Part shown: piece after piece, positions 29,597 through 39,840 of the stretch
Numbering within the stretch: the first letter of the stretch is position 1
How the letters are laid out: every line of letters begins with the position of its first letter
Assembly (NCBI GenBank): GCA_012518075.1
Contig: JAAYTG010000097.1
Span: 1 to 40,091 of the forward strand
Length of the DNA stretch: 40,091 nt
Direction of reading: 5' to 3'
Source: Clostridiales bacterium
Lineage (GTDB): Bacteria; Bacillota; Clostridia; Caldicoprobacterales; UBA3941
Notes under the pieces: model-generated
What the model saw: only the letters and a program-made list of their open reading frames with translations
The model's database searches: none
Told to the model about the DNA's origin: nothing
Translations under genes and position numbers: made by a program

Positions 29597-30154
29597 CTAA
29601 ACTCTTTCCATATACTCTCCTGATCTGGTATCAACTCGTATAACATCGCCTATGTTAACAAATAATGGGACATGCACTAATGCACCTGTCTCAAGTGTAG
29701 CAGGTTTACTACCTCCAGTAGCAGTATCTCCTTTAAATCCTGGTTCCGTTTCAGTAACTTCTAGCTCTACAAAGAATGGTGGTTCTACAGAGAATGCCTC
29801 TCCTTTAAAGAACTTAATAGTTACATTCATATTTTCCTTTATAAATTTGATTGTATCCTCTACTTGGCTATGATTAAGAGGGATTTGCTCGTAGGTTTCA
29901 GTATCCATGAAATAATACAGATTCCCATCGTTATATAAATACTGCATTTCCTTTGTCTCCACATGAGCTCTTGATACTTTTTCACTGGGGCTAAAGGTTC
30001 TTTCTAGTGTAGTGCCGGTGACAATATTTTTTATCTTTGTTCTTACAAAGGCAGCACCTTTCCCCGGTTTTACATGTTGAAAATCTACGACTGAGTAAAC
30101 CTGATCATCAATTTCAATTGTAATACCTTTTCTAAAATCTCCTGCAGAAATCAT
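29597..30154 (-). CDS. efp: translation elongation factor P
   Basis: The 185-aa EF-P relieves ribosome stalling at proline runs. The three-domain tRNA-mimic fold starts [16 protein letters not shown]. The modified residue is K32 in PGKGAAFVR, at the tip that reaches the peptidyl-transferase centre. The C-terminal OB domain ends with the family signature around [25 protein letters not shown] precedes the ATG. Length and all landmarks are standard. It lies between aroQ and the zinc-ribbon gene; the gap to aroQ is 51 nt, so co-transcription is likely. Confidence 0.98.
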
Positions 30155-30205
30155 TACTTCATCTCCTATTCATAATAGAAATATTATTATAGTTAATTTT
30201 TAAAC

Positions 30206-30652
30206 CTAGTCTGTAGACGGATTAGTCAAATGCTTAACTAGAAAATCTAAGGCTAATCCATAGCCTTCCAACCCTAGGCCACTAATCTGTCCCAGACATA
30301 CGGGAGCTATAACAGACAAATGGCGAAAAGGTTCTCTAGCACTAATGTTTGATATATGTACTTCAATTACCGGGAGATTAACTGACGATACGGCATCCCT
30401 AAGAGCATAGCTATAATGACTAAAAGCTCCAGGATTGAAGATTATACCATGGGTATCTCTTCTAGCTTCATGTATTTGATCAATTAGAGCGCCTTCATTA
30501 TTGGATTGAAAATGATAAATTTCTACACCTAAAGCTTGAGCACTCTTATTCATATATTTGATCAAACTCTCCAAACTGATTTCACCGTAAATAGAAGGCT
30601 CTCTCTCCCCTAGAAGATTTAAATTGGGTCCATTTAAGATTAGAATCTTCAT
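30206..30652 (-). CDS. aroQ: type II 3-dehydroquinate dehydratase
   Basis: The 148-aa dodecameric enzyme of the shikimate pathway converts 3-dehydroquinate to 3-dehydroshikimate. Visible are the active-site loop NGPNLNLLGEREPSIYG with catalytic Arg and Tyr, FQSNNEGALIDQIHEA, NPGAFSHYSYALRDA, and the catalytic histidine in VEVHISNISAREPFR. The frame opens at TTG 30661, but ATG 30652 matches the family N-terminus MKILILNGPN. AAGGGAG lies about 12 nt before it. It shares the transcript with aroK. Confidence 0.95.
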   Translation of the reverse strand: MKILILNGPNLNLLGEREPSIYGEISLESLIKYMNKSAQALGVEIYHFQSNNEGALIDQIHEARRDTHGIIFNPGAFSHYSYALRDAVSSVNLPVIEVHISNISAREPFRHLSVIAPVCLGQISGLGLEGYGLALDFLVKHLTNPSTD

Positions 30653-30693
30653 AACAAACAAGAACTCCCTTAATTAATCTCACATATATATTA

Positions 30694-31581
30694 TCATATA
30701 TTGGTATTTTTGAATAGGTTCAATTTTTCTCGATAAATATCCTTTAGTCTAAGAGCATCTTCGGCCATAACCTCTCTGGATTCACATATTATTGTTGGAG
30801 TCAGTTGTCTTTCAATAATTACTTCTGCTAAAGGTGAGAATTCTGGCCCATACTGAGAATCAGAAATGGTCCAGTGCTTTTTCTCACCACCTGTTGTAAA
30901 TTCGATACGGCTAAAGTGAGAATGAAAAACCTTAGTTCTCTCATAGCCAATAGCATCTTCTACACTATTTAGGATCAATTCGTAATCTTCTTTACTATTT
31001 ATTGCACCTAATCCTCGGGCGTGCAGATGTCCAAAATCCAGAGTAGGAATAATATTTTCATGAAAAGAGCAAAAGTATAGAACTTCTTTTAAATTACCCA
31101 CTTGATTTATTTTGCCCATTGTTTCGGGACACAGAAACATACCCTTTTGGAGGAATGTTCTGGCTTTTTCTATAATTTGCTCTAGGGTGGAAGCAGCCCT
31201 TTCAACTGCTGTTTTTCTAGACATTTTTGCGCAGGAACCTGGATGAAAAACAACCCTCTTTGCTCCAAGCCAACTGGCCACTTTCAAAGAGTCCAATATA
31301 TATTTAATGGATTTTTCTCTTTTATCTTTTTCAGGTGAAGCAAGGTTTATATAATATGGGGCGTGAACACTAAGGGCAATATCATATAGTCTTGCCTGTT
31401 CACCAATTGCTCTTGCTGTTTCTTCCTTTATGTTTATACCCCGAGTTAATGAATACTCATAAGCATTTAAACCCATATCATAAAGCCACTTAGGCATTTG
31501 TACACTAGTTTTATTCCCTTGTTCATAAAATATTTTACTGTTTCCTGAGGGGCCAAATCTAGTTTCTTCACACAAGACCAC
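30694..31581 (-). CDS. TIM-barrel protein of the endonuclease IV / sugar isomerase fold
   Basis: The 295-aa xylose-isomerase-like TIM barrel has metal ligands in the order of endonuclease IV: SVHAPYYINLA (about 71), VVFHPGS (about 110), CPETMGK (about 153), TLDFGHLHARG (about 188), VFHSHFSR (about 223) and CESR near the end. The Asp-x-His pair of true AP endonucleases is not seen; EKKH stands at that place. It may be a DNA repair enzyme, a sugar isomerase or an aro-related dehydratase. GTG 31581 overlaps the aroK stop (TAGTG), so it is translationally coupled to aroK. A start further in cannot be excluded. Confidence 0.75.
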   Translation of the reverse strand: MVLCEETRFGPSGNSKIFYEQGNKTSVQMPKWLYDMGLNAYEYSLTRGINIKEETARAIGEQARLYDIALSVHAPYYINLASPEKDKREKSIKYILDSLKVASWLGAKRVVFHPGSCAKMSRKTAVERAASTLEQIIEKARTFLQKGMFLCPETMGKINQVGNLKEVLYFCSFHENIIPTLDFGHLHARGLGAINSKEDYELILNSVEDAIGYERTKVFHSHFSRIEFTTGGEKKHWTISDSQYGPEFSPLAEVIIERQLTPTIICESREVMAEDALRLKDIYREKLNLFKNTNI

Positions 31582-32096
31582 TATTTATTGTCATCCCTTC
31601 CAATCAACTTTATAATGTCATTCATGATTTGCTCCTTACTTTTCCCATCAGTTGTTACTGTATGGTGAGCCATCATATATATAGGGCGTCTCTGGGTGTA
31701 AAGTTCATCTATCCGTCTTTTTAGGTTACCATGATTTAGCATAGGACGATTACTAGAATCCTTTAATCTATCATACAAGAGGGCTGATGAAGCATCTAAA
31801 TGGATCACTGTACCTTTTGATAACATTGTATTAAATAATTCTCTGTTCATTACTGCACCACCACCAGTGGACACCACAAGCTTATGTAAGTTCATTATGT
31901 CCATTATTGCCTTATATTCCAATCTCCTAAAATATTCTTCTCCATGTCTATTAAAAATATCCGGTATGTCCGTTCCAGCTATTTCCATAATCTTTTCATC
32001 AGTATCAACAAAAGCATAGGACAGTTTTTTTGCTAATTCACTTCCTATTGTAGTCTTGCCTACGCCCATAAATCCAATCAATATAATCTTATTCAT
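31581..32096 (-). CDS. aroK: shikimate kinase
   Basis: The 171-aa kinase phosphorylates shikimate at O3. P-loop GFMGVGKTT with K14, shikimate-binding FVDTDEKI (Asp about 33), EEYFRRLEYKA with the binding Arg (about 57), STGGGAVM (about 78-84), the lid arginine in SSNRPML (about 117) and the adenine-loop RRPIY (about 135). Its ATG overlaps the stop of the ComFB-like gene by 8 nt (ATGAATAA), and its stop overlaps the next start. Confidence 0.96.
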   Translation of the reverse strand: MNKIILIGFMGVGKTTIGSELAKKLSYAFVDTDEKIMEIAGTDIPDIFNRHGEEYFRRLEYKAIMDIMNLHKLVVSTGGGAVMNRELFNTMLSKGTVIHLDASSALLYDRLKDSSNRPMLNHGNLKRRIDELYTQRRPIYMMAHHTVTTDGKSKEQIMNDIIKLIGRDDNK

Positions 32097-32397
32097 TGGA
32101 GTACATTCCTAAATTATGTCTCGGATTCTTACTGACCACATCAATCGCTTTTACAAGAGCCATAATTATATCCACCTCAAATTGTTGTTGAAGGTATGCT
32201 ATCTTTGAATATATTTCACCCTGACTTGTCACGATATATTTAGGCGGTAGTGTATTAAGGGCACAAGCCATAATATCTAAGCGACATCTAGTGCATGTAC
32301 AGAATTCATACTTTTTTGATAGTTCATTCAACACAGTAGGCACAACATCTTCCATGTAATTCTTTAAGAAAATTGAGTCTTTGTTTTTCTGCTTCAC
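32089..32397 (-). CDS. comFB: ComFB-family protein
   Basis: The 102-aa protein has the late-competence ComFB pattern: NYMEDVVPTVLNEL at the start, then the cysteine cluster CTCTRCRLDIMACALNTLPPKY with C33, C35, C38 and C45. The cysteines suggest zinc binding. ComFB proteins from cyanobacteria and Bacillus have been reported to bind cyclic dinucleotides; that is recalled knowledge, not visible here. GTG 32397 follows AAAGGAGG. It is first in a unit with aroK, the TIM-barrel gene, aroQ and efp, but directly follows the pilus cluster, so it may serve pilus control. Confidence 0.85.
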   Translation of the reverse strand: MKQKNKDSIFLKNYMEDVVPTVLNELSKKYEFCTCTRCRLDIMACALNTLPPKYIVTSQGEIYSKIAYLQQQFEVDIIMALVKAIDVVSKNPRHNLGMYSNE

Positions 32398-32419
32398 CTT
32401 TAGGCCTCCTTTTGTAATG

Positions 32420-32447
32420 ATTATAACATTTATACCACGAAAACCAA
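32420..32447 (-). promoter_or_regulatory. promoter of the comFB-aroK-aroQ-efp unit
   Basis: On the minus strand TTGGTT (32447-32442), 16-nt spacer and TGTTATAAT (extended -10, 32425-32420) lie about 25 nt before the comFB start. It would separate this unit from the pilus genes. Confidence 0.6.
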
Positions 32448-32474
32448 AGTCTCATTTATTTATTATAGAAGATA

Positions 32475-33032
32475 TTAATAGTTTTCCTCTGCTTTGAATA
32501 CTAAGAATGACAATATCAACTCAACATCACAATTGTAATCCCTATTAACTGTATTTGATTGCTTCTTATCAATTTTTATATGATTTATTGCCACAGGCCA
32601 AGGTATCTCTTCTATATTGGCAATTATTTTTTTAAGATTAGTATAATTTGTTTCAAGGTTAAGTGAAACAGTTGCAGTATGATAATCATCATATTCAAGG
32701 GCATCCTCAAATTTAAGCTTGGTACTAATCCCTAGCCCTTCAATGGATTCCTCTATAAATATAATAATTTGGGGATTTATTTTTTTGCTATCATATATTG
32801 AAGAAATCCCCTGACTGTCTACTTCCAATTGTGATAGGTTTACTTGCATATCTTGAATTTGAATTTCAGTATAGGAAGAGTCTTCCAAATTGAGTTTATT
32901 TACATGGATTTCATCTTTAATTAGGTTGATTTGACGGTATAAGTCCTTATAGAAGAAATTATAGTATGAGAGTGAAATAATGACTGCCAATGTAACAGAT
33001 ATAAGCTTCTTTTCCCTATTTGAAATCTTCAA
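32475..33032 (-). CDS. pilO: type IV pilus inner-membrane protein PilO-like
   Basis: The 185-aa protein has a short cytoplasmic start, one membrane helix (about residues 10-27), a coiled coil (about 30-75) and a ferredoxin-like C-terminal domain, the PilO layout. It should pair with PilN to link the cytoplasmic ATPase ring to the outside. The start is TTG 33032, with GGAGG 6 nt before it; no other start fits. It overlaps pilN by 17 nt. Sequence conservation in this family is low, so the call leans on gene order pilM-pilN-pilO. Confidence 0.8.
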   Translation of the reverse strand: MKISNREKKLISVTLAVIISLSYYNFFYKDLYRQINLIKDEIHVNKLNLEDSSYTEIQIQDMQVNLSQLEVDSQGISSIYDSKKINPQIIIFIEESIEGLGISTKLKFEDALEYDDYHTATVSLNLETNYTNLKKIIANIEEIPWPVAINHIKIDKKQSNTVNRDYNCDVELILSFLVFKAEENY

Positions 33033-33594
33033 TATCTTCCTCCCCTTCAGTATATATATCCTCTATACAGATATCATTCATCTCAATGGCGGATCTAAGA
33101 AAAAAACGTTGCTTTTCACTTTCTCTATCGAGAGAAATCTCATGAATGTTGACCGATACTATTCTTTTATTCTCATATAATCTTAATATACTATTGGCTA
33201 TTGTTGCTTTACTGGGAGCTATACCTTCAATATCCAAGGTTTCATCGGATAGGCTTATATGGGTTAATTCAATACCTGGGAAGATTGATTCATCTATGGT
33301 ATCTAAAACGGAAACAAAATCCATATTCCTAGATTCTATTTGATAGATAATATCTACCTTCTTTGATAGGCTGTCCGAGTATTCCTTTAGATTTAAGTAT
33401 TCATTGTTAATTTCATTCCAGACTCTTAATTCTTGGTCTAGTTTTTCAGACTCCGATATGAGCCTATTCTTGTAAAGAATAGGCAGAAGGAAAGCAGCCA
33501 TAATTATTAGTAAAACTAAAGCTAAAGTTATTATCATTAGAGCATATCTAGGCCTTTTTACATTCAACGGCATTAGATTTATATCCCTTTTCAT
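33016..33594 (-). CDS. pilN: type IV pilus inner-membrane protein PilN-like
   Basis: The 192-aa protein begins MKRDINLMPL, the conserved PilN tail that binds PilM, then has one membrane helix (about 18-38), a coiled coil and a compact C-terminal domain (Fimbrial assembly family, about 95-190). ATG 33594 has AGGAGG at 8 nt; the frame's first GTG (33600) lies too close to it. The ribosome site is inside the pilM stop region, so the two are coupled. Confidence 0.85.
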   Translation of the reverse strand: MKRDINLMPLNVKRPRYALMIITLALVLLIIMAAFLLPILYKNRLISESEKLDQELRVWNEINNEYLNLKEYSDSLSKKVDIIYQIESRNMDFVSVLDTIDESIFPGIELTHISLSDETLDIEGIAPSKATIANSILRLYENKRIVSVNIHEISLDRESEKQRFFLRSAIEMNDICIEDIYTEGEEDIEDFK

Positions 33595-33596
33595 TA

Positions 33597-34529
33597 TCAC
33601 AGCCTCCTAATAGTAGATCCAATAGCATTGCCTAAAACCATAAGGTCATTCCTCTTTAATCCACCGGCCACTAAATTCACTGAACTTATCCATTCACTAT
33701 ACAATGATACATCTACTCCGACTTCTTGACTTAAATCTTTAATAAAATTTCCACTAGTTGCCTTGGGGCCAAACAGGATAATATTATTAAGATGATTGTC
33801 CTCTGGTACTTGGTTTTGAAAATACCTAAAAACCCCCACTATCTCACCTATTAGTTGTCCTAGGTTTGTATCAAAGGCAAATGATATGGTCTTATCCACG
33901 AAATAGTTACCATTATGTAATATAATGATGCTGCTATAATAATTCTCTATATTGATCAAACATAAGTTACCATTATCTAAAATCAGTTGCTTTTCATGAG
34001 TGGAAAACATTTTTAATAGCTTGTGCAGGCAATTAGATGGAACATCCAAATATATTGGCTTTAAGCCAGCTTTTTTTAGCATCTGAATATAGGGAAATGC
34101 TATCTCTTTTAGAATTGCTACGACCATAATATTCCAAACCTCTACACCATTCAAATCAGATACATCCATAATTCTGTAGTCAATAATGTAATCATCTAAA
34201 CCCTTAGTTAGATAATCCTTTATATCAAAAAGAATATTCTCCCACAGTATTTCAGCGTCCATCTTAGGTAGGGAAATTACTCTTGTTATTATGTGGTGCG
34301 CAGGCAGACATAAGGAACACCTATTAGCCTTGATTCTATTTAAATCCATTATCCTTCTGATAAACTTGGCTAATAATTCCTCAGAAATTATTCTGTCATT
34401 TTCTAATAAGCCTTCTGGAATAGTTTCTATTGCCCATTTGCTACATATGCCGTTTTTAGTTGTTTCTATAATTCTTATCTCACGTGAACCAATATCTACT
34501 CCTAAGGAGACCTTAGCTTTTAATCTCAT
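33597..34529 (-). CDS. pilM: type IV pilus assembly protein PilM, actin-like
   Basis: The 310-aa protein is related to FtsA and actin. The phosphate-1 motif is GVDIGSREIRIIE (about residues 10-22). Family-typical segments include LCLPAHHIITRVISLPKM (about 73-90). It binds nucleotide and the PilN tail at the cytoplasmic face of the pilus base. The GGGAGG site precedes ATG. The protein is somewhat shorter than Gram-negative PilM (about 350) and less conserved at its centre, but gene order supports the call. Confidence 0.85.
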   Translation of the reverse strand: MRLKAKVSLGVDIGSREIRIIETTKNGICSKWAIETIPEGLLENDRIISEELLAKFIRRIMDLNRIKANRCSLCLPAHHIITRVISLPKMDAEILWENILFDIKDYLTKGLDDYIIDYRIMDVSDLNGVEVWNIMVVAILKEIAFPYIQMLKKAGLKPIYLDVPSNCLHKLLKMFSTHEKQLILDNGNLCLINIENYYSSIIILHNGNYFVDKTISFAFDTNLGQLIGEIVGVFRYFQNQVPEDNHLNNIILFGPKATSGNFIKDLSQEVGVDVSLYSEWISSVNLVAGGLKRNDLMVLGNAIGSTIRRL

Positions 34530-34551: not shown

Positions 34552-35058
34552 TCATCTAGTCTCGATCCATTCTGAGATATAGAAAGAGGAGTGGTCTAAC
34601 TTAAAGTCTTCTTCATTTGGGTCCCTCCAGACTACATGAACTGAAGCTTTAACAGAACGGTTTATATTCCCAATTCTACAGGTAGATATAATTACTATCT
34701 CATCTTTATTCAATACACTATTATTTCTTTTACAGGTAATATTGACTTTTACTTCTTTCCCCTCATAGTCCTCAAATTTAGGAGGATTTATTGGTGTTTG
34801 AAGCAGCCTCATGAGAAAGGATTGTCTGCTAACAACCTTAGGATCCTTATATAATTGTTCCATGTTGTTACATAGGTTTTCTATTTGCTGTGTTAAACCT
34901 GCTTCTGCATAGTAATAAGCTGCTTGATATAGCTTATCCGAGGAAAGAATTTTCATATGAACTATATCCATATTTAACAGAGTTATGCCTAGCAGAGAAA
35001 GAACCAAAAGTACTAAGAGTACTACAATTATAGCAGAGCCTTTTTCGCCAATACTCAT
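34552..35058 (-). CDS. PilX-like pilus protein
   Basis: The 168-aa protein has the PilX N-terminal form: short charged start MSIGEKGSAII, then a hydrophobic helix (about residues 8-29) and AAYYYAEAGLTQQIENL, the segment seen in PilX/GspK-like minor pilins. There is no classic GFTLIE cleavage motif, but G-S-A with no Glu at +5 is common for PilX. AAAGGTG precedes ATG. It is likely a minor component of the pilus tip. Confidence 0.75.
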   Translation of the reverse strand: MSIGEKGSAIIVVLLVLLVLSLLGITLLNMDIVHMKILSSDKLYQAAYYYAEAGLTQQIENLCNNMEQLYKDPKVVSRQSFLMRLLQTPINPPKFEDYEGKEVKVNITCKRNNSVLNKDEIVIISTCRIGNINRSVKASVHVVWRDPNEEDFKLDHSSFYISEWIETR

Positions 35059-35110
35059 TATATATCACCTTTTTCTATACTATCTATCTCCTGACCCAAA
35101 CATAGCATTA

Positions 35111-35557
35111 TTAATCCATTAGGTAAAAATAGGCTTCAAGTGAAAAGGTTTTCTCATTGCTATCAGGAATGCTAGAAATCTTTATGTAGACTAATGATGG
35201 ATTAGGCATAGAAAATGAAAACTCCGATATACCTGTAGCTAGCTGGTTGTTTTTATTCATTAAAACGTCTTTTGATAATCGATAGTTTTCATCACCAACT
35301 ATTAAGAGATCTCCTCTAATGCTTACATTGTTAGTTCGTCTAATATGATAGGTAATATGCTCCATGGCAATCCGCAAATTGGATTGATTCTCTATGGCTG
35401 TTGTATTATTTATATATCCCTGGATTCCAAATAGGTAGATGGAATAAGCCAACGATAGTATTAAAAGAATAAGACTGACAGCGATGAGAAGCTCTATTAG
35501 AGTAACTCCCCTTTGTATTCCATATGATTTCTTTGTTGTAATTAGTGTGTTTTTCAT
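35111..35557 (-). CDS. type IV minor pseudopilin, PilW/GspJ-like
   Basis: The 148-aa prepilin has leader MKNTLITTKKSYGIQRG and cleavage G|VTLIELL at residue 17/18, with Glu at +5 and a hydrophobic helix to about residue 38. The rest is a small soluble domain with LRIAMEHITYHIRRT, as in PilW/GspJ proteins. The ribosome site is weak (GAAGTTGAAG), suggesting coupling with the preceding pseudopilin gene 22 nt upstream. Confidence 0.85.
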   Translation of the reverse strand: MKNTLITTKKSYGIQRGVTLIELLIAVSLILLILSLAYSIYLFGIQGYINNTTAIENQSNLRIAMEHITYHIRRTNNVSIRGDLLIVGDENYRLSKDVLMNKNNQLATGISEFSFSMPNPSLVYIKISSIPDSNEKTFSLEAYFYLMD

Positions 35558-35579
35558 AATTTTATCTTCAACTTCTATT

Positions 35580-36311
35580 TCAATTTTTCAGTCTAATAAT
35601 ATTTTCAATTTGAAATATTGGCTGCCCAAGACTGGTATTATCGAAGGCCTCTATCCTAACCTTGGATATTATGTAATCTCTATAAAAGCATTTATCAGTA
35701 ACCGTGCATTCCTTATCAGATATAATATCCCAGTTGTTATTAGCTCCAGGATATATAGTAATATTGATATCTCCAGTAATATTAAAAGTTATATTATTAT
35801 CTAACTGTCCATGGATCAAGTTGATATACACGTCACATTTTTCAGATGGCATAAGTAGTCCAGACATGGTTTGCTCACCTAAGCTTATATTAAAGGAAGT
35901 CTGTTGAATATCTATGTACATGGTGTAATCATCCATATTTGCTTCTAGTAAGAAATTTCTAAACCCGTCAGGCGAAAAAACTCTTAACTCATCTTGTGAA
36001 TCATTGATATTATTTGATATTATATAAAAACATTGCATATCAGATTTAACGGAATAAGGTGCTATAGAAGTCCGGATAAAAAAATCATCAACCTCTTTAA
36101 CCCCTCTTGATCTATATGCTTCTAAGCAATTTTTGGACATTAATATCTCCAATTCATTTCGGGATAGATAAATTGCTTGAAATTGCCTAGACATAGATTT
36201 GCGTGCTCTCGTCGATTGAAGAAACATACCAGTAAAAGGTCCTACGATGAGAGCAACAAGAAAAATAGCTACAAGGATTTCAATAAGGGAGATACCTTTG
36301 TTTTTATTCAA
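35580..36311 (-). CDS. type IV minor pseudopilin, PilV/GspI-like
   Basis: The 243-aa prepilin has a very short leader MNKNKG and cleavage G|ISLIEIL at residue 6/7, helix to about 30, then FQAIYLSRNELEILM as in PilV-type pilins. The remaining 190 residues form a beta-rich domain. The start is TTG 36311, sharing TTGA with the stop of the preceding gene and using GGTGGAG as ribosome site. Confidence 0.82.
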   Translation of the reverse strand: MNKNKGISLIEILVAIFLVALIVGPFTGMFLQSTRARKSMSRQFQAIYLSRNELEILMSKNCLEAYRSRGVKEVDDFFIRTSIAPYSVKSDMQCFYIISNNINDSQDELRVFSPDGFRNFLLEANMDDYTMYIDIQQTSFNISLGEQTMSGLLMPSEKCDVYINLIHGQLDNNITFNITGDINITIYPGANNNWDIISDKECTVTDKCFYRDYIISKVRIEAFDNTSLGQPIFQIENIIRLKN

Positions 36312-36763
36312 GATTTTATCTCCACCCTTCCTGTACCAACAGCAACGGTTATGGTTAGCTCGTTTCCTTTTTTAGATGTTAAGGTAATACTACCAGTTTG
36401 TGAAGGAATGCCTGTAGGCGAAAAGGTGAGTCTCTTAAAATCACCCTCACTCTTGAAAGTACAAGTAATCTCGGAGATGTTTGGGTTAAACTCTACTCTT
36501 TTAATAGTTGGATCCCGGAGGGCTATACTTCTAATCCTGTATAAGTTCTCCTTTAAATTGACTTCGAAATGATGATAGATGCCCTTAGTGGTGGCCAGAT
36601 GTTGCGTCCATCTAATATCTTCTACTATTTCCTTTGCTGTAGAATCTAATACCCACTTATCTATTGTACTTACAATCTCAGGAATAGCAATTGCTGATAA
36701 TACGCCCAATATAGCGATTATACATAACAATTCTATTAGGGTAACCCCTTTTCCATTATACAC
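36308..36763 (-). CDS. type IV minor pseudopilin, FimT/GspH-like
   Basis: The 151-aa prepilin has leader MYNGKG, cleavage G|VTLIELL at residue 6/7, and helix with the IAIPEI segment of FimT/GspH. After it comes LDSTAKEIVEDIRWTQHLA, typical of GspH, and a beta-domain with the conserved FSPTGIPSQTGSI (about 115-127). GTG 36763 follows AGGCGG. Confidence 0.87.
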   Translation of the reverse strand: MYNGKGVTLIELLCIIAILGVLSAIAIPEIVSTIDKWVLDSTAKEIVEDIRWTQHLATTKGIYHHFEVNLKENLYRIRSIALRDPTIKRVEFNPNISEITCTFKSEGDFKRLTFSPTGIPSQTGSITLTSKKGNELTITVAVGTGRVEIKS

Positions 36764-36776
36764 AGAAATTCACCGC

Positions 36777-37538
36777 CTATAAAAAACTAACCACATACCA
36801 CTGGATTATATCTCTTCCCCATAAAAGTGCGATAAGGCTGGCTAATGAAATGAAAGGGCCAAAGGCAATATATTCTCCTTTATTTTTTATTCCCAGCAGT
36901 AAGAGAAAAATGGAGAAAATTCCGCCAATGTATATAGAAACAAATAGAGTCAATAGGGTTAGCTTCCAGCCTAGAAAGAGCCCGATGACCCCTAACAGTT
37001 TAATATCTCCACCGCCCATTCCTTCTTTTCTTAAAACTAACAATGAAACAAGCCCAATAATTAATAAACTACCTGCACCACTAATAAGGCCTAGTATGGC
37101 ATTCCAAAATTGTGTAGTAAAGCCGGCTAAACTAAATAAAACTCCGAAGATGAAGCCTATAACAACTAATTTATTGGGGATAAATTGTTGTTCAATATCT
37201 ATAAAGGAGATAATTATTAGAAGTCCTGTTAAAAATGTGTAGCTGACAAACTGCCAAGTTAGGCCGTAGGCATTATATAATAAGAGGACCAATACAGCTG
37301 TAATAAGTTCAATAATAGGATATCTTATAGAAATCTTAGCTTTACAATACCTGCACTTACCTAATAGAAAGATGTAGCTTAGTATGGGTATTAGGTCTAA
37401 GGGTGCTAGTGGATGTCGGCATTCTGGGCAATGGGAAGGAGGATATACAATGGATTCACCACTCATAGCCCTATGGATGCATACATTATAAAAACTTCCT
37501 AAAAAGACACTAAATAAAGCCATCAATAGTATTGTCAT
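36777..37538 (-). CDS. pilD: prepilin leader peptidase / N-methyltransferase
   Basis: The 253-aa membrane aspartyl protease cleaves prepilins at the Gly before the Phe-like residue and methylates the new N-terminus. Two zinc-type pairs CPEC (about 37-40) and CRYC (about 62-65) belong to the methylase domain. Catalytic aspartates are in FIDIEQQFIP (about 118) and MGGGDIKLLG (about 175-184). About seven hydrophobic helices follow. It processes the pseudopilins encoded on both sides. It is followed after 13 nt by the FimT-like gene. Confidence 0.95.
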   Translation of the reverse strand: MTILLMALFSVFLGSFYNVCIHRAMSGESIVYPPSHCPECRHPLAPLDLIPILSYIFLLGKCRYCKAKISIRYPIIELITAVLVLLLYNAYGLTWQFVSYTFLTGLLIIISFIDIEQQFIPNKLVVIGFIFGVLFSLAGFTTQFWNAILGLISGAGSLLIIGLVSLLVLRKEGMGGGDIKLLGVIGLFLGWKLTLLTLFVSIYIGGIFSIFLLLLGIKNKGEYIAFGPFISLASLIALLWGRDIIQWYVVSFL

Positions 37539-37554
37539 GAAAATACCCTTTCTT

Positions 37555-38751
37555 TTAGTCTAAATAAACATACAGTTTAAACATGGGCATGGCTACAGAA
37601 ATAACTATAAAAGCTATGATTCCACCTAAGAGGAGTATAGAGATAGGTTCAAGTAAGTCAACAAATTTGTCTATAGCAGCTTCAGCTTCCAACTCACATA
37701 TATCTGCTATCTTTTCAATCATCTCTTCAAGGTACCCGCTTTCTTCACCTATGGCAATTGCATTGATGTTTTCCTGTGAAAATATATCCAATGATCTTAG
37801 CGAATTTGCTAAGCCTTCCCCCTTTCGTATCATGCTACCTGCTTGAGCTAATCTTTTATTTATAAACTCATTCTTTGTTACTTTAGATGAGATAGTCAGG
37901 CTATGATTAATGGATAGTCCAGCTGAAATCAAAATAGCCACTGAACGGTTAAAGCGCGCGGCTATTATCTTGTTGATAATACTACCCAAGTAGGGGATCT
38001 TTAGTACAATCTTATGCAAAAATAGTTTAGTCTTATGGAAAGACAAGAGGAGTCTAAATATTAAATATGTGATTGCTGGCAAAAGTATAAGAAGTATTGA
38101 ATTATGGGAAAAGAAATCACTCATTCTTATAAGAAGACGCGTATATATTGGCAGATCCGCTTGAGCATTTCCAAAGATAATAACAAACTGGGGTACTACT
38201 ATACGCATTAGAAAACAAATAACTAAGATAGCTGTAATAAATAGAATTAGAGGATATGTTAAGGCTTTGCGTATCTTTTGCTTTATTCTATATTGTTTTT
38301 CAAAATAATCCGCCATTTTACCAAAAGATTTTTCTAAAGTTCCGCTCCATTCACCAGATTCAATACTTCTAATCAGTATTGTAGGAAAGCTATTACCTTG
38401 TTTGAGCATTGCTTGAGATAAGGAATGTCCTCCCTGAACTAAATAATAAACCTTTTGTAAAGACTTCGTTAAAGTAGGATTGGTAGTTTGGTTAATTATC
38501 ATATGTAGCCCCTGAACCGAGGGAACACCCGATTTTAAGATTGATGCATATTGCTTGCAAAAAATAAAAAGATCTTTAGAAGTAACACTGGGTATTATAT
38601 TAAATCTCCTGATGGTCTTTACATCTTCCATATATCTTATTGACACTGGAAAGAATTGCTTTTGACGTAATTGCCTAACGACTTCTTTCTTATCTTCAGC
38701 CTCTATAATACCCTCTATCTCTTGCCCTTCTATACTAATAGCACTATACAT
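37555..38751 (-). CDS. pilC: type IV pilus platform protein PilC (GspF family)
   Basis: The 398-aa inner-membrane platform protein has two GspF domains (about residues 60-185 and 265-390), each ending in membrane helices. The N-terminal IEGQEIEGIIEAEDKKEVVRQLR is the usual start, and the repeats show FCKQYASILKSGVPSVQGL and FNRSVAILISAGLSINHSL. It couples the assembly ATPase to pilin insertion. No upstream start exists in frame. The ribosome site is poor (AGG 3-5 nt away). The assembly ATPase PilB is not encoded in the window. Confidence 0.92.
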   Translation of the reverse strand: MYSAISIEGQEIEGIIEAEDKKEVVRQLRQKQFFPVSIRYMEDVKTIRRFNIIPSVTSKDLFIFCKQYASILKSGVPSVQGLHMIINQTTNPTLTKSLQKVYYLVQGGHSLSQAMLKQGNSFPTILIRSIESGEWSGTLEKSFGKMADYFEKQYRIKQKIRKALTYPLILFITAILVICFLMRIVVPQFVIIFGNAQADLPIYTRLLIRMSDFFSHNSILLILLPAITYLIFRLLLSFHKTKLFLHKIVLKIPYLGSIINKIIAARFNRSVAILISAGLSINHSLTISSKVTKNEFINKRLAQAGSMIRKGEGLANSLRSLDIFSQENINAIAIGEESGYLEEMIEKIADICELEAEAAIDKFVDLLEPISILLLGGIIAFIVISVAMPMFKLYVYLD

Positions 38752-38820
38752 AAACCTAGGTATACTTCATCACTCCTTCAAATGCTAGTGATATGTATTT
38801 TAAGTAAAAGGATATATAAC

Positions 38821-38849
38821 ATTATATATGATATAATATAATAATTCAA
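38821..38849 (-). promoter_or_regulatory. candidate promoter for pilC and downstream pilus genes
   Basis: On the minus strand TTGAAT (38849-38844), 17-nt spacer and TATAAT (38826-38821) lie about 75 nt before pilC in a 145-nt gene-free, very AT-rich gap. Such base composition gives chance matches, so confidence is moderate. Confidence 0.5.
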
Positions 38850-38862
38850 CATATTATATCAT
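38828..38862. repeat. 12-bp inverted repeat embracing the pilC promoter -35
   Basis: ATGATATAATAT (38828-38839) and ATATTATATCAT (38851-38862) are perfect reverse complements separated by 11 nt that contain the -35 TTGAAT. No T-run follows. It could be a binding site for a dimeric regulator. Confidence 0.5.
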
Positions 38863-38896
38863 AATTATACATTTATGGAATATGATAGGATGACGG

Positions 38897-39439
38897 CTAG
38901 TCTATAAAAGGACTATAGTAATGCACCCAAGCCCCAGAAGAATTCTCATTAGGAAGCTCTTCAAGGTTAACAAGTGAAATTTTGGAATTAATTCTATACT
39001 GGTCTTCGCTTTCGCCAGCTATAATAGAAAACTCCAATATATTAGTATTCTTATTTAGGCTTAGACTTAACTGTTGAATACTTCCATTAGTTATAAGTCT
39101 AATTTTATCCTTATAATAATATTTAATATACCCTTTTTTAAGGCCTAGGCAACTATTATATAAATCACTTTTTGGGATAGGTATTTCGTCTGAAGCAAGA
39201 CTAATAACTGTAGCCGTTCTCAGTTCTCGAGTTATGAACTCCGCAGCCAATAATGCATCATTTTGCATATCCGATTTCGTCTGTGCTTTATTAAATGTAT
39301 CAGCACTAAATGAGAAAAAAGAAAATATAGAAGTAAACACTATGCCTAACAGAGCTAGAACTATAACAATCTCCACTAAAGTCACACCGCTACTAGAAAT
39401 TATTACTGCATCTTTTAACGAACTTCGTGTGGTATTCAT
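38897..39439 (-). CDS. type IV minor pseudopilin, PilW-like
   Basis: The 180-aa prepilin has leader MNTTRSSLKDAVIISSSG, cleavage G|VTLVEIV at residue 18/19, helix to about 40, then a soluble domain with AAEFITRELRTATVI as in PilW/GspJ. GGAGG sits 6 nt before ATG. It belongs to the first of two pseudopilin sets in this cluster and is followed by the gap with the pilC promoter. Confidence 0.85.
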   Translation of the reverse strand: MNTTRSSLKDAVIISSSGVTLVEIVIVLALLGIVFTSIFSFFSFSADTFNKAQTKSDMQNDALLAAEFITRELRTATVISLASDEIPIPKSDLYNSCLGLKKGYIKYYYKDKIRLITNGSIQQLSLSLNKNTNILEFSIIAGESEDQYRINSKISLVNLEELPNENSSGAWVHYYSPFID

Positions 39440-39500
39440 ACATAGCCTCCATAATTATGAGAAAACATTTATATGTTTGGGTATATTGTGAAATTAAGAA

Positions 39501-39827
39501 TCAATCAGGGACAAATACTGAAATGGACAATTCTTTATCCTTTATTATTATACTTTCCGTTTGAATCCTTCCCGATACTCTTATAGTCTTCTCTAAATCA
39601 GGAAATGAGATGATTAGCTCTTTCTCCTGAGAAGTATCATCAGGGTTAGGGGACTGTTCTAGTCTTTCTTGGATTTCATATAATCCCCTATTATTCATTC
39701 CCGATCTTGTAATATCCCGATAACTGTTTACATATAGGGCTAAGAAGGCAGAACTAATTATTAATAGTATAGCCAGGGCTATTAGTAATTCAATTAATGT
39801 AAATCCTTTATTCTTTGACAAAATCAT
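39501..39827 (-). CDS. type IV minor pseudopilin, PilV/GspI-like
   Basis: The 108-aa prepilin has leader MILSKNKG and a perfect cleavage site G|FTLIELL at residue 8/9, helix to about 30, then a short soluble domain with YEIQERLEQSPN. ATG 39827 has AAGGGA 8 nt upstream; the frame's first ATG (39836) is adjacent to that site and not usable. It starts 13 nt after the stop of the next gene upstream. Confidence 0.85.
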   Translation of the reverse strand: MILSKNKGFTLIELLIALAILLIISSAFLALYVNSYRDITRSGMNNRGLYEIQERLEQSPNPDDTSQEKELIISFPDLEKTIRVSGRIQTESIIIKDKELSISVFVPD

Positions 39828-39840
39828 ATAATGCATCCCT

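Follow-up and report, generated by a model that had tools for sequence, protein, structure and literature searches.

A ComFB-family gene directly behind pilMNO is a candidate link between c-di-GMP and type IV pili in Clostridia

A gene of the ComFB family adjoins type IV pilus genes in the genome of a Clostridiales bacterium (GenBank assembly GCA_012518075.1, contig JAAYTG010000097.1), on a stretch of 40,091 nucleotides referred to here as the window. Does ComFB connect a cyclic dinucleotide to the pili in this lineage, as the original prediction proposed? ComFB is already known from cyanobacteria as a cyclic-dinucleotide receptor affecting pili (PMC12313861). According to the available parts of that paper, the Synechocystis protein (ComFB/CdgR, Slr1970; the CdgR of Nostoc is Alr3277) binds c-di-AMP (2.6 uM) and c-di-GMP (1.7 uM, a value quoted there from another study). 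Deletion of its gene is described there as lowering pilM and PilN, raising PilA1, reducing transformation and causing hyperpiliation. The available text of a second paper reports complexes of cyanobacterial ComFB with SyCRP1 and SyCRP2, and cites a 2025 PNAS paper in which ComFB is called a widespread c-di-NMP receptor family, as well as a 2026 preprint on pili (PMC13249358).

The genes and sites of the window are presented in table 1. The comFB product scores 90.1 bits against PF10719 (cut-off 25), its residues 12-92 covering the complete profile (positions 1-83 of 83), and its assignment to the ComFB family is thereby confirmed. It is the sole ComFB found by profile search in this genome (217 contigs, 92.8% completeness). 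The interval 32089-33032 of the original prediction does contain comFB but spans two genes, the second being pilO-like.

Table 1. Genes and sequence motifs around comFB in the window.
Feature	Positions	Strand	Evidence or remark
TIM-barrel gene, aroQ and efp, 3' of aroK	29597..31581	(-)	AP_endonuc_2 E 1.6e-29; DHquinase_II E 1.2e-58
aroK (shikimate kinase)	31581..32096	(-)	SKI E 1.4e-47
comFB	32089..32397	(-)	102 aa; GTG start behind AGGAGG; PF10719 E 9.7e-26
H94 codon, expected fourth zinc ligand	32116-32118	(-)	His kept in 120/123 ComFBs
Codons of C33-x-C35-x2-C38	32284..32301	(-)	three of four expected zinc ligands
Promoter-like site, TTGGTT-16-TATAAT, extended -10 (TGTTATAAT)	32420..32447	(-)	TATAAT in 10/10 gaps
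pilO-like gene	32475..33032	(-)	185 aa; PilO E 0.013 (sub-threshold) and position
pilN	33016..33600	(-)	PF05137 E 8.6e-7
pilM	33597..34529	(-)	PF11104 (PilM_2) E 8.8e-17; TIGR01175 E 2.3e-26, below its cut-off
Remaining type IV pilus cluster: PilX-like gene, pilins, pilD, pilC	34552..39836	(-)	PilX_N E 2.6e-11 for 34552-35058

Upstream of comFB and on the same strand, the pilus cluster runs nearly to the contig end. Its last three genes before comFB are pilM, pilN and the pilO-like gene, the counterpart of which in a related locus (L018) matches PilO with E 7.4e-7; comFB is thus located directly 3' of the pilus cluster, as predicted. The pilins, pilD and pilC were named from reading of the frames, and their order was matched in relatives by BLASTP. 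A gap of 77 bp (32398-32474) separates the pilO-like gene from comFB. On the other side, comFB overlaps aroK by 8 bp (32089-32096), which couples it to the aro genes too. The efp gene, also named from its frame, shares 79-89% identity with its counterparts in relatives and is followed downstream by spoIIIA. The surroundings of comFB differ from those of its counterpart in Bacillus subtilis, where the gene lies in the comF operon by comFA and comFC. In Synechocystis, comFB is encoded with hfq and not with pil genes, according to the available text, and a link of the protein to type IV pili and pilMNO has been published for that organism (PMC12313861).

A promoter of its own would separate comFB from the pilus genes and tie it to the aro genes, a reservation made with the original prediction. 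All 10 loci that have this gene order carry the sequence TATAAT between pilO and comFB; these belong to two families, include the locus of the window and, being related, are not independent. It was found in 0/10 control stretches of the same length taken within pilO, and shuffling of the gaps yields it in about 5 to 48% of cases, depending on the gap. The promoter at 32420-32447 is therefore likely to be real. Its TATAAT begins 28 to 44 bases upstream of the predicted start codon in the window and in the loci of family f2; the gap in the window holds a second TATAAT, 70 bases before the start codon, and in two relatives from family f1 the distances are 88 and 125 bases. A consensus promoter scan of the window gave 58 sites against 53.2 expected by chance, and did not list 32420-32447 because its -35 element is poor, below the scan threshold. 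None of the seven terminator-like sites of the window (5.7 expected by chance) lies between pilO and comFB, and no inverted repeat was found in 32380-32500. With the promoter likely real, comFB-aroK can be a unit of its own in this genome: for the window genome and its close relatives the reservation is right.

The zinc site described for ComFB of B. subtilis consists of C25, C27, C30 and C88 (PMC4381287, available portion), and the same source provides the residues N, E, D, N and Y of the dimer interface. The window protein has the CxCxxC pattern with a distant Cys or His. In an alignment of 123 ComFBs of the class including that of the window, C33 is kept in 122, C35 in 122, C38 in 123 and H94 in 120, while N13, E16, D41, N48 and Y54 of the predicted dimer interface are each kept in 120-123. 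These residues correspond to the B. subtilis sites if histidine is allowed as fourth ligand; His94 would stand where that protein has Cys88. What had been described as a cysteine-rich protein is, more precisely, a protein with one conserved three-cysteine motif and H94.

An AlphaFold2 model of the window ComFB (pLDDT 82.4, pTM 0.71) is closest to the B. subtilis structure 4wai (Foldseek E 4.1e-6, TM 0.68; VIA Z 11.4, rmsd 2.0 over 85 residues), with which it shares the fold, the three clustered cysteines and the dimer residues. The second match is 8hja, the c-di-GMP-bound CdgR of Synechocystis, which we take from the names to be Slr1970; here the superposition is loose (Foldseek E 1.1e-3, rmsd 6.9; VIA Z 9.4, rmsd 5.5), the chain is longer and the aligned stretch lacks the zinc cysteines. 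The other Foldseek rows, with E above 3, were disregarded. The same two structures are the only ones retrieved from the PDB, at E up to 0.1, by a profile of the ComFB alignment: 4wai with E 1.9e-12 and 8hja with E 1.6e-6, the latter over profile positions 3-59. The protein departs from the B. subtilis type in missing the cut-off of the NCBIfam equivalog NF052654 for late competence protein ComFB (50.8 of 120 bits).

The near-invariant zinc motif, together with its absence from the aligned region of CdgR, could also mean that ComFB of this lineage has no nucleotide ligand and serves to sense zinc or redox state, or as a structural component of competence; for the B. subtilis protein, sensing of zinc or redox state has been suggested (PMC4381287, in the part available). 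The distribution of diguanylate cyclases speaks against this. The GGDEF domain (threshold E <= 1e-20) is present in 267 of the 391 genomes of the class: in 111/111 of those with ComFB, against 156/280 of those without. Outside the class, in a second sample of the phylum (319 genomes), the figures are 181/181 and 108/127, with two unlisted GGDEF-free genomes assigned to this outside group. Pooled over both samples, GGDEF accompanies ComFB in 292/292 genomes, and is found in 264/407 ComFB-free ones; all these co-occurrence counts are raw and ignore kinship. A 2025 PNAS study is moreover said to have measured c-di-GMP binding for the ComFBs of B. subtilis and Thermoanaerobacter brockii, and the latter result would likewise be at odds with a protein that has no nucleotide ligand. 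We regard such a protein as highly improbable.

Is the ligand then c-di-GMP or c-di-AMP? The window genome encodes enzymes for both: of 14 GGDEF candidates, 11 were scored and at least 10 matched at E <= 1e-20, and there is one gene for the c-di-AMP cyclase DAC. It also has a ComEC-type gene, so a competence pilus is possible. Binding of c-di-AMP with a phenotype has been published for Synechocystis, where this ligand was proposed to act in competence (PMC12313861, available text), and ComFB could similarly tie pili or DNA uptake to c-di-AMP in Clostridia. DAC, however, was found in 40/40 chosen ComFB genomes and in 17/20 chosen genomes free of both ComFB and GGDEF; it is therefore not discriminating, whereas GGDEF follows ComFB. 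In two genomes (G116 and G312), the gene immediately 5' of comFB and in the same orientation encodes a PAS-GGDEF protein, at 236 and 152 bp respectively. These are only 2/123 loci. A diguanylate-cyclase label built from a single protein, which may overlook some of these enzymes, marked eight frames in six loci; in one of them, L200, a locus from a named organism, the gene stands beside comFB on the opposite strand. On the whole, c-di-AMP as the physiological ligand appears very unlikely, and binding of c-di-GMP by the window ComFB is, judging from its family and this co-occurrence, quite probable.

Whether the ligand is read out at the pilus is a separate matter, on which the gene order in relatives bears. 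ComFB is present in 12/30 genomes of the order and in 111/391 of the class. Of 124 ComFB-bearing stretches (120 matches from the class sample and four from the order sample), 123 were counted: L123, in which the script missed the ComFB frame, was left out beforehand, as was L027, from a genome without ComFB. Neighbours were labelled as pil or aro by means of profiles built on the window genes and a few relatives, and unlabelled ones may be missed pil genes. On this basis, type IV pilus genes lie within the stretch in 55/123 loci from 15/32 families, and none was found in 68/123.

The arrangement of the window recurs in its close relatives. In families f1 and f2, comFB directly follows pilO in 10/10 ComFB loci (two of them contigs of one genome), and aroK comes next in all nine that have sequence there; in three loci of family f4, comFB is located elsewhere and not behind pilO. 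More distant genomes have other arrangements. There are nine class loci among the 123 in which comFB is flanked by two pil genes: it lies between pilX and pilM in all six loci of family f25, at spacings from -32 to 22 bp, while G279 and G344 have it between pilD and pilM, and G134 between pilD and a pilin. Among the best 80 of 356 loci from named organisms, ranked by their similarity to eight ComFBs, pilM comes immediately after comFB in 17. The comFB-pilM loci of this set include Thermoanaerobacter wiegelii, Caldanaerobacter subterraneus, Thermosediminibacter litoriperuensis, Tepidanaerobacter, Herbivorax and Fervidicola; the set overlaps the class sample (L168 and G137, for example) and is not an independent count. 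Linkage of comFB to pil genes is therefore conserved beyond close kin. No report of comFB inside clostridial pil operons was found in the literature searched, to which the supplement of PMC12313861 and the 2025 PNAS paper, where one may be present, did not belong.

Several other observations were made on these loci. In two f4 loci (L022 and L024), comFB adjoins a putative soluble inorganic pyrophosphatase gene and has a hotdog-thioesterase-like gene close by (both named by eye); cyclic dinucleotide synthesis releases pyrophosphate. In three families whose loci have similar neighbours, the ComFB domain forms the C-terminal end of longer proteins, 303 to 414 aa in length (L134:5986-6897, L135:5098-6249 and L138:5992-7236), the N-terminal parts of which gave no Pfam match over cut-off. 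Four genomes of family f54 (L130 to L133) encode a second ComFB, which is divergent and sits on a long branch; no labelled pil gene is near three of them, and PilT-like genes are near that of L131. Two contigs of genome G004 (L025 and L026) have the same pilM-pilN-pilO-comFB-aroK stretch with differing ComFB sequences, which indicates mixed strains or a duplicated locus. The identical ComFBs of G294 (L077 and L078) lie inverted towards opposite ends of a single 36.9 kb contig and share their neighbours, probably an assembly palindrome.

The conserved order need not reflect function. In 17/17 loci of family f9 and 7/7 of family f28, no pil gene was found within the stretch, and PilM is encoded elsewhere in 12 and seven of these genomes, respectively; comFB remains behind a HAD-family gene or aroE. 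Because comFB keeps its locus in families with their pil genes elsewhere, the pil-comFB-aro block owes its order partly to inheritance. On a ComFB tree (99 columns, with many forks unresolved), the pil label clusters by descent, requiring 11 changes against a mean of 40.6 after shuffling. ComFB could accordingly be a c-di-GMP receptor with a target other than the pilus, such as flagellar motility, cell size or the expression of a neighbour, its position by pilMNO being a relic of old gene order. The promoter of comFB fits this, as does Anabaena CdgR, which is titrated by c-di-GMP and controls cell size through DevH (PMC13075795, available portion). The variety of placements (pilX-comFB-pilM, pilD-comFB-pilM and pilO-comFB-aroK) is, however, hard to explain by linkage to aro genes alone.

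The distribution of PilM (threshold E <= 1e-9) also argues for a connection with pili. PilM is present in 89/111 class genomes with ComFB and in 57/280 without; these counts include matches covering only profile positions ~183-303, which may be other proteins. Among the GGDEF-bearing class genomes alone, the figures are 89/111 with ComFB and 50/156 without, which a target unrelated to pili would not lead one to expect. PilM-bearing genomes have GGDEF in 89/89 cases with ComFB and 50/57 without. The association has exceptions in both directions: PilM gave no match in 22/111 ComFB genomes, and a profile search found no ComFB in any of the 13 genomes of family f3, of which 12 have a PilM-family match (some short and weak) and all 13 an MshEN match. 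In the genomes examined, ComFB follows the c-di-GMP enzymes and, less strictly, the pili.

Other c-di-GMP effectors in the window genome bear on the same choice. Three receptor types were searched: PilZ, MshEN and ComFB. The single PilZ protein is encoded within an apparent flagellar-chemotaxis operon (frames resembling FlhF, MinD and CheA/W/C/D, by eye), from which it follows that c-di-GMP acts on motility too. ComFB of B. subtilis affects motility, another point in favour of a target outside the pilus. Given the varied placements and the PilM counts, we consider such a target rather unlikely. The single MshEN-domain protein is a PilB (L225:42-1628, minus strand, contig C10), encoded 77 bp from aroE. 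MshEN, a domain unrelated to ComFB, is likewise a c-di-GMP input to type IV pili through the PilB/MshE ATPases. In this PilB of 528 aa, the two c-di-GMP-binding MshEN motifs were not found, there being no LG motif, and Walker A is located at 287, compared with 321-326 in four f2 PilBs. With PilZ in the flagellar operon and PilB without the motifs, ComFB is the only one of the three receptor types left beside the pilus.

Similarly short PilBs, likewise without the motifs, are encoded by the family members G021, G022, G024 and G025. Most of the other PilBs read, including the four from f2, have the motifs. A loose MshEN pattern matched 23/37 uncut PilBs, and at least four of the 14 without a match (L104, L219, L221 and L224) carry the motif by eye; the PilBs of L145 and L155 look degenerate, and those of L247 and L248 are short by the start-choice rule. 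A general rule by which ComFB replaces MshEN was rejected, f2 and Herbivorax having both. Nor does the rule hold within f1, where the short PilB occurs with ComFB (G000, G024 and G025) and without it (G021 and G022).

Control by RNA was considered as well. c-di-GMP riboswitches control type IV pili in Clostridium difficile, a c-di-GMP control of clostridial pili like the one considered here, but by RNA. Over Rfam thresholds, no riboswitch was found: the window holds only a tRNA, and 10 more stretches from pil loci, including the region upstream of pilB, gave nothing. Riboswitch control of the pil genes was rejected for the loci searched.

Taken together, these data make the window ComFB a good candidate for a link between c-di-GMP and the pilus in these clostridia. 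The predicted connection from cyclic dinucleotide through ComFB to pili is favoured by comFB inside the pil operons of relatives, by GGDEF in every ComFB genome, by the two genomes with comFB behind a diguanylate cyclase gene and by the cyanobacterial work (PMC12313861, in its available parts); it is weakened by the partly inherited nature of the block. Further counterweights are the own promoter, the aroK overlap, the loci with no pil genes nearby, family f3, the ComFB genomes with PilM unmatched and the rarity of adjoining cyclase genes. The absence of a transformation phenotype after comFB deletion in B. subtilis, as given in the available text of PMC4381287, also weighs against the link.

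The mechanism that we propose from these comparisons is as follows. A zinc-stabilised homodimer of ComFB in the cytoplasm would bind c-di-GMP, and its ligand state would most likely alter contact with a cytoplasmic partner. One candidate partner is PilM, since pilM directly follows comFB in Thermoanaerobacter and others; another is a CRP-type regulator, as described for cyanobacterial ComFB in the portion of PMC13249358 available. The gene would probably be expressed with aroK from its own promoter in the window genome, and within the pil operon in other genomes. The chances that such a dimer binds c-di-GMP and tunes the adjoining type IV pilus seem to us even. Considered separately, a part in pilus control is an evenly balanced proposition, and direct action on PilM is unlikely. 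In a stronger version, ComFB of this lineage would be a dedicated c-di-GMP input on the PilM-PilN-PilO platform that took over from the MshEN motifs lacking in PilB; its location inside the pil operons of relatives would then point to control of the pilus machine itself and not of transcription. This stronger version we judge improbable.

The tie between ComFB and pili through second messengers is recent and comes from cyanobacteria. The presence of comFB inside the pil operons of cultivable Clostridia and thermophiles offers a second case that is directly testable. This arrangement could help to distinguish action on the pilus machine, through PilM, from action via transcription factors. For genomes in which PilB lacks the MshEN motifs, ComFB is a candidate c-di-GMP receptor.
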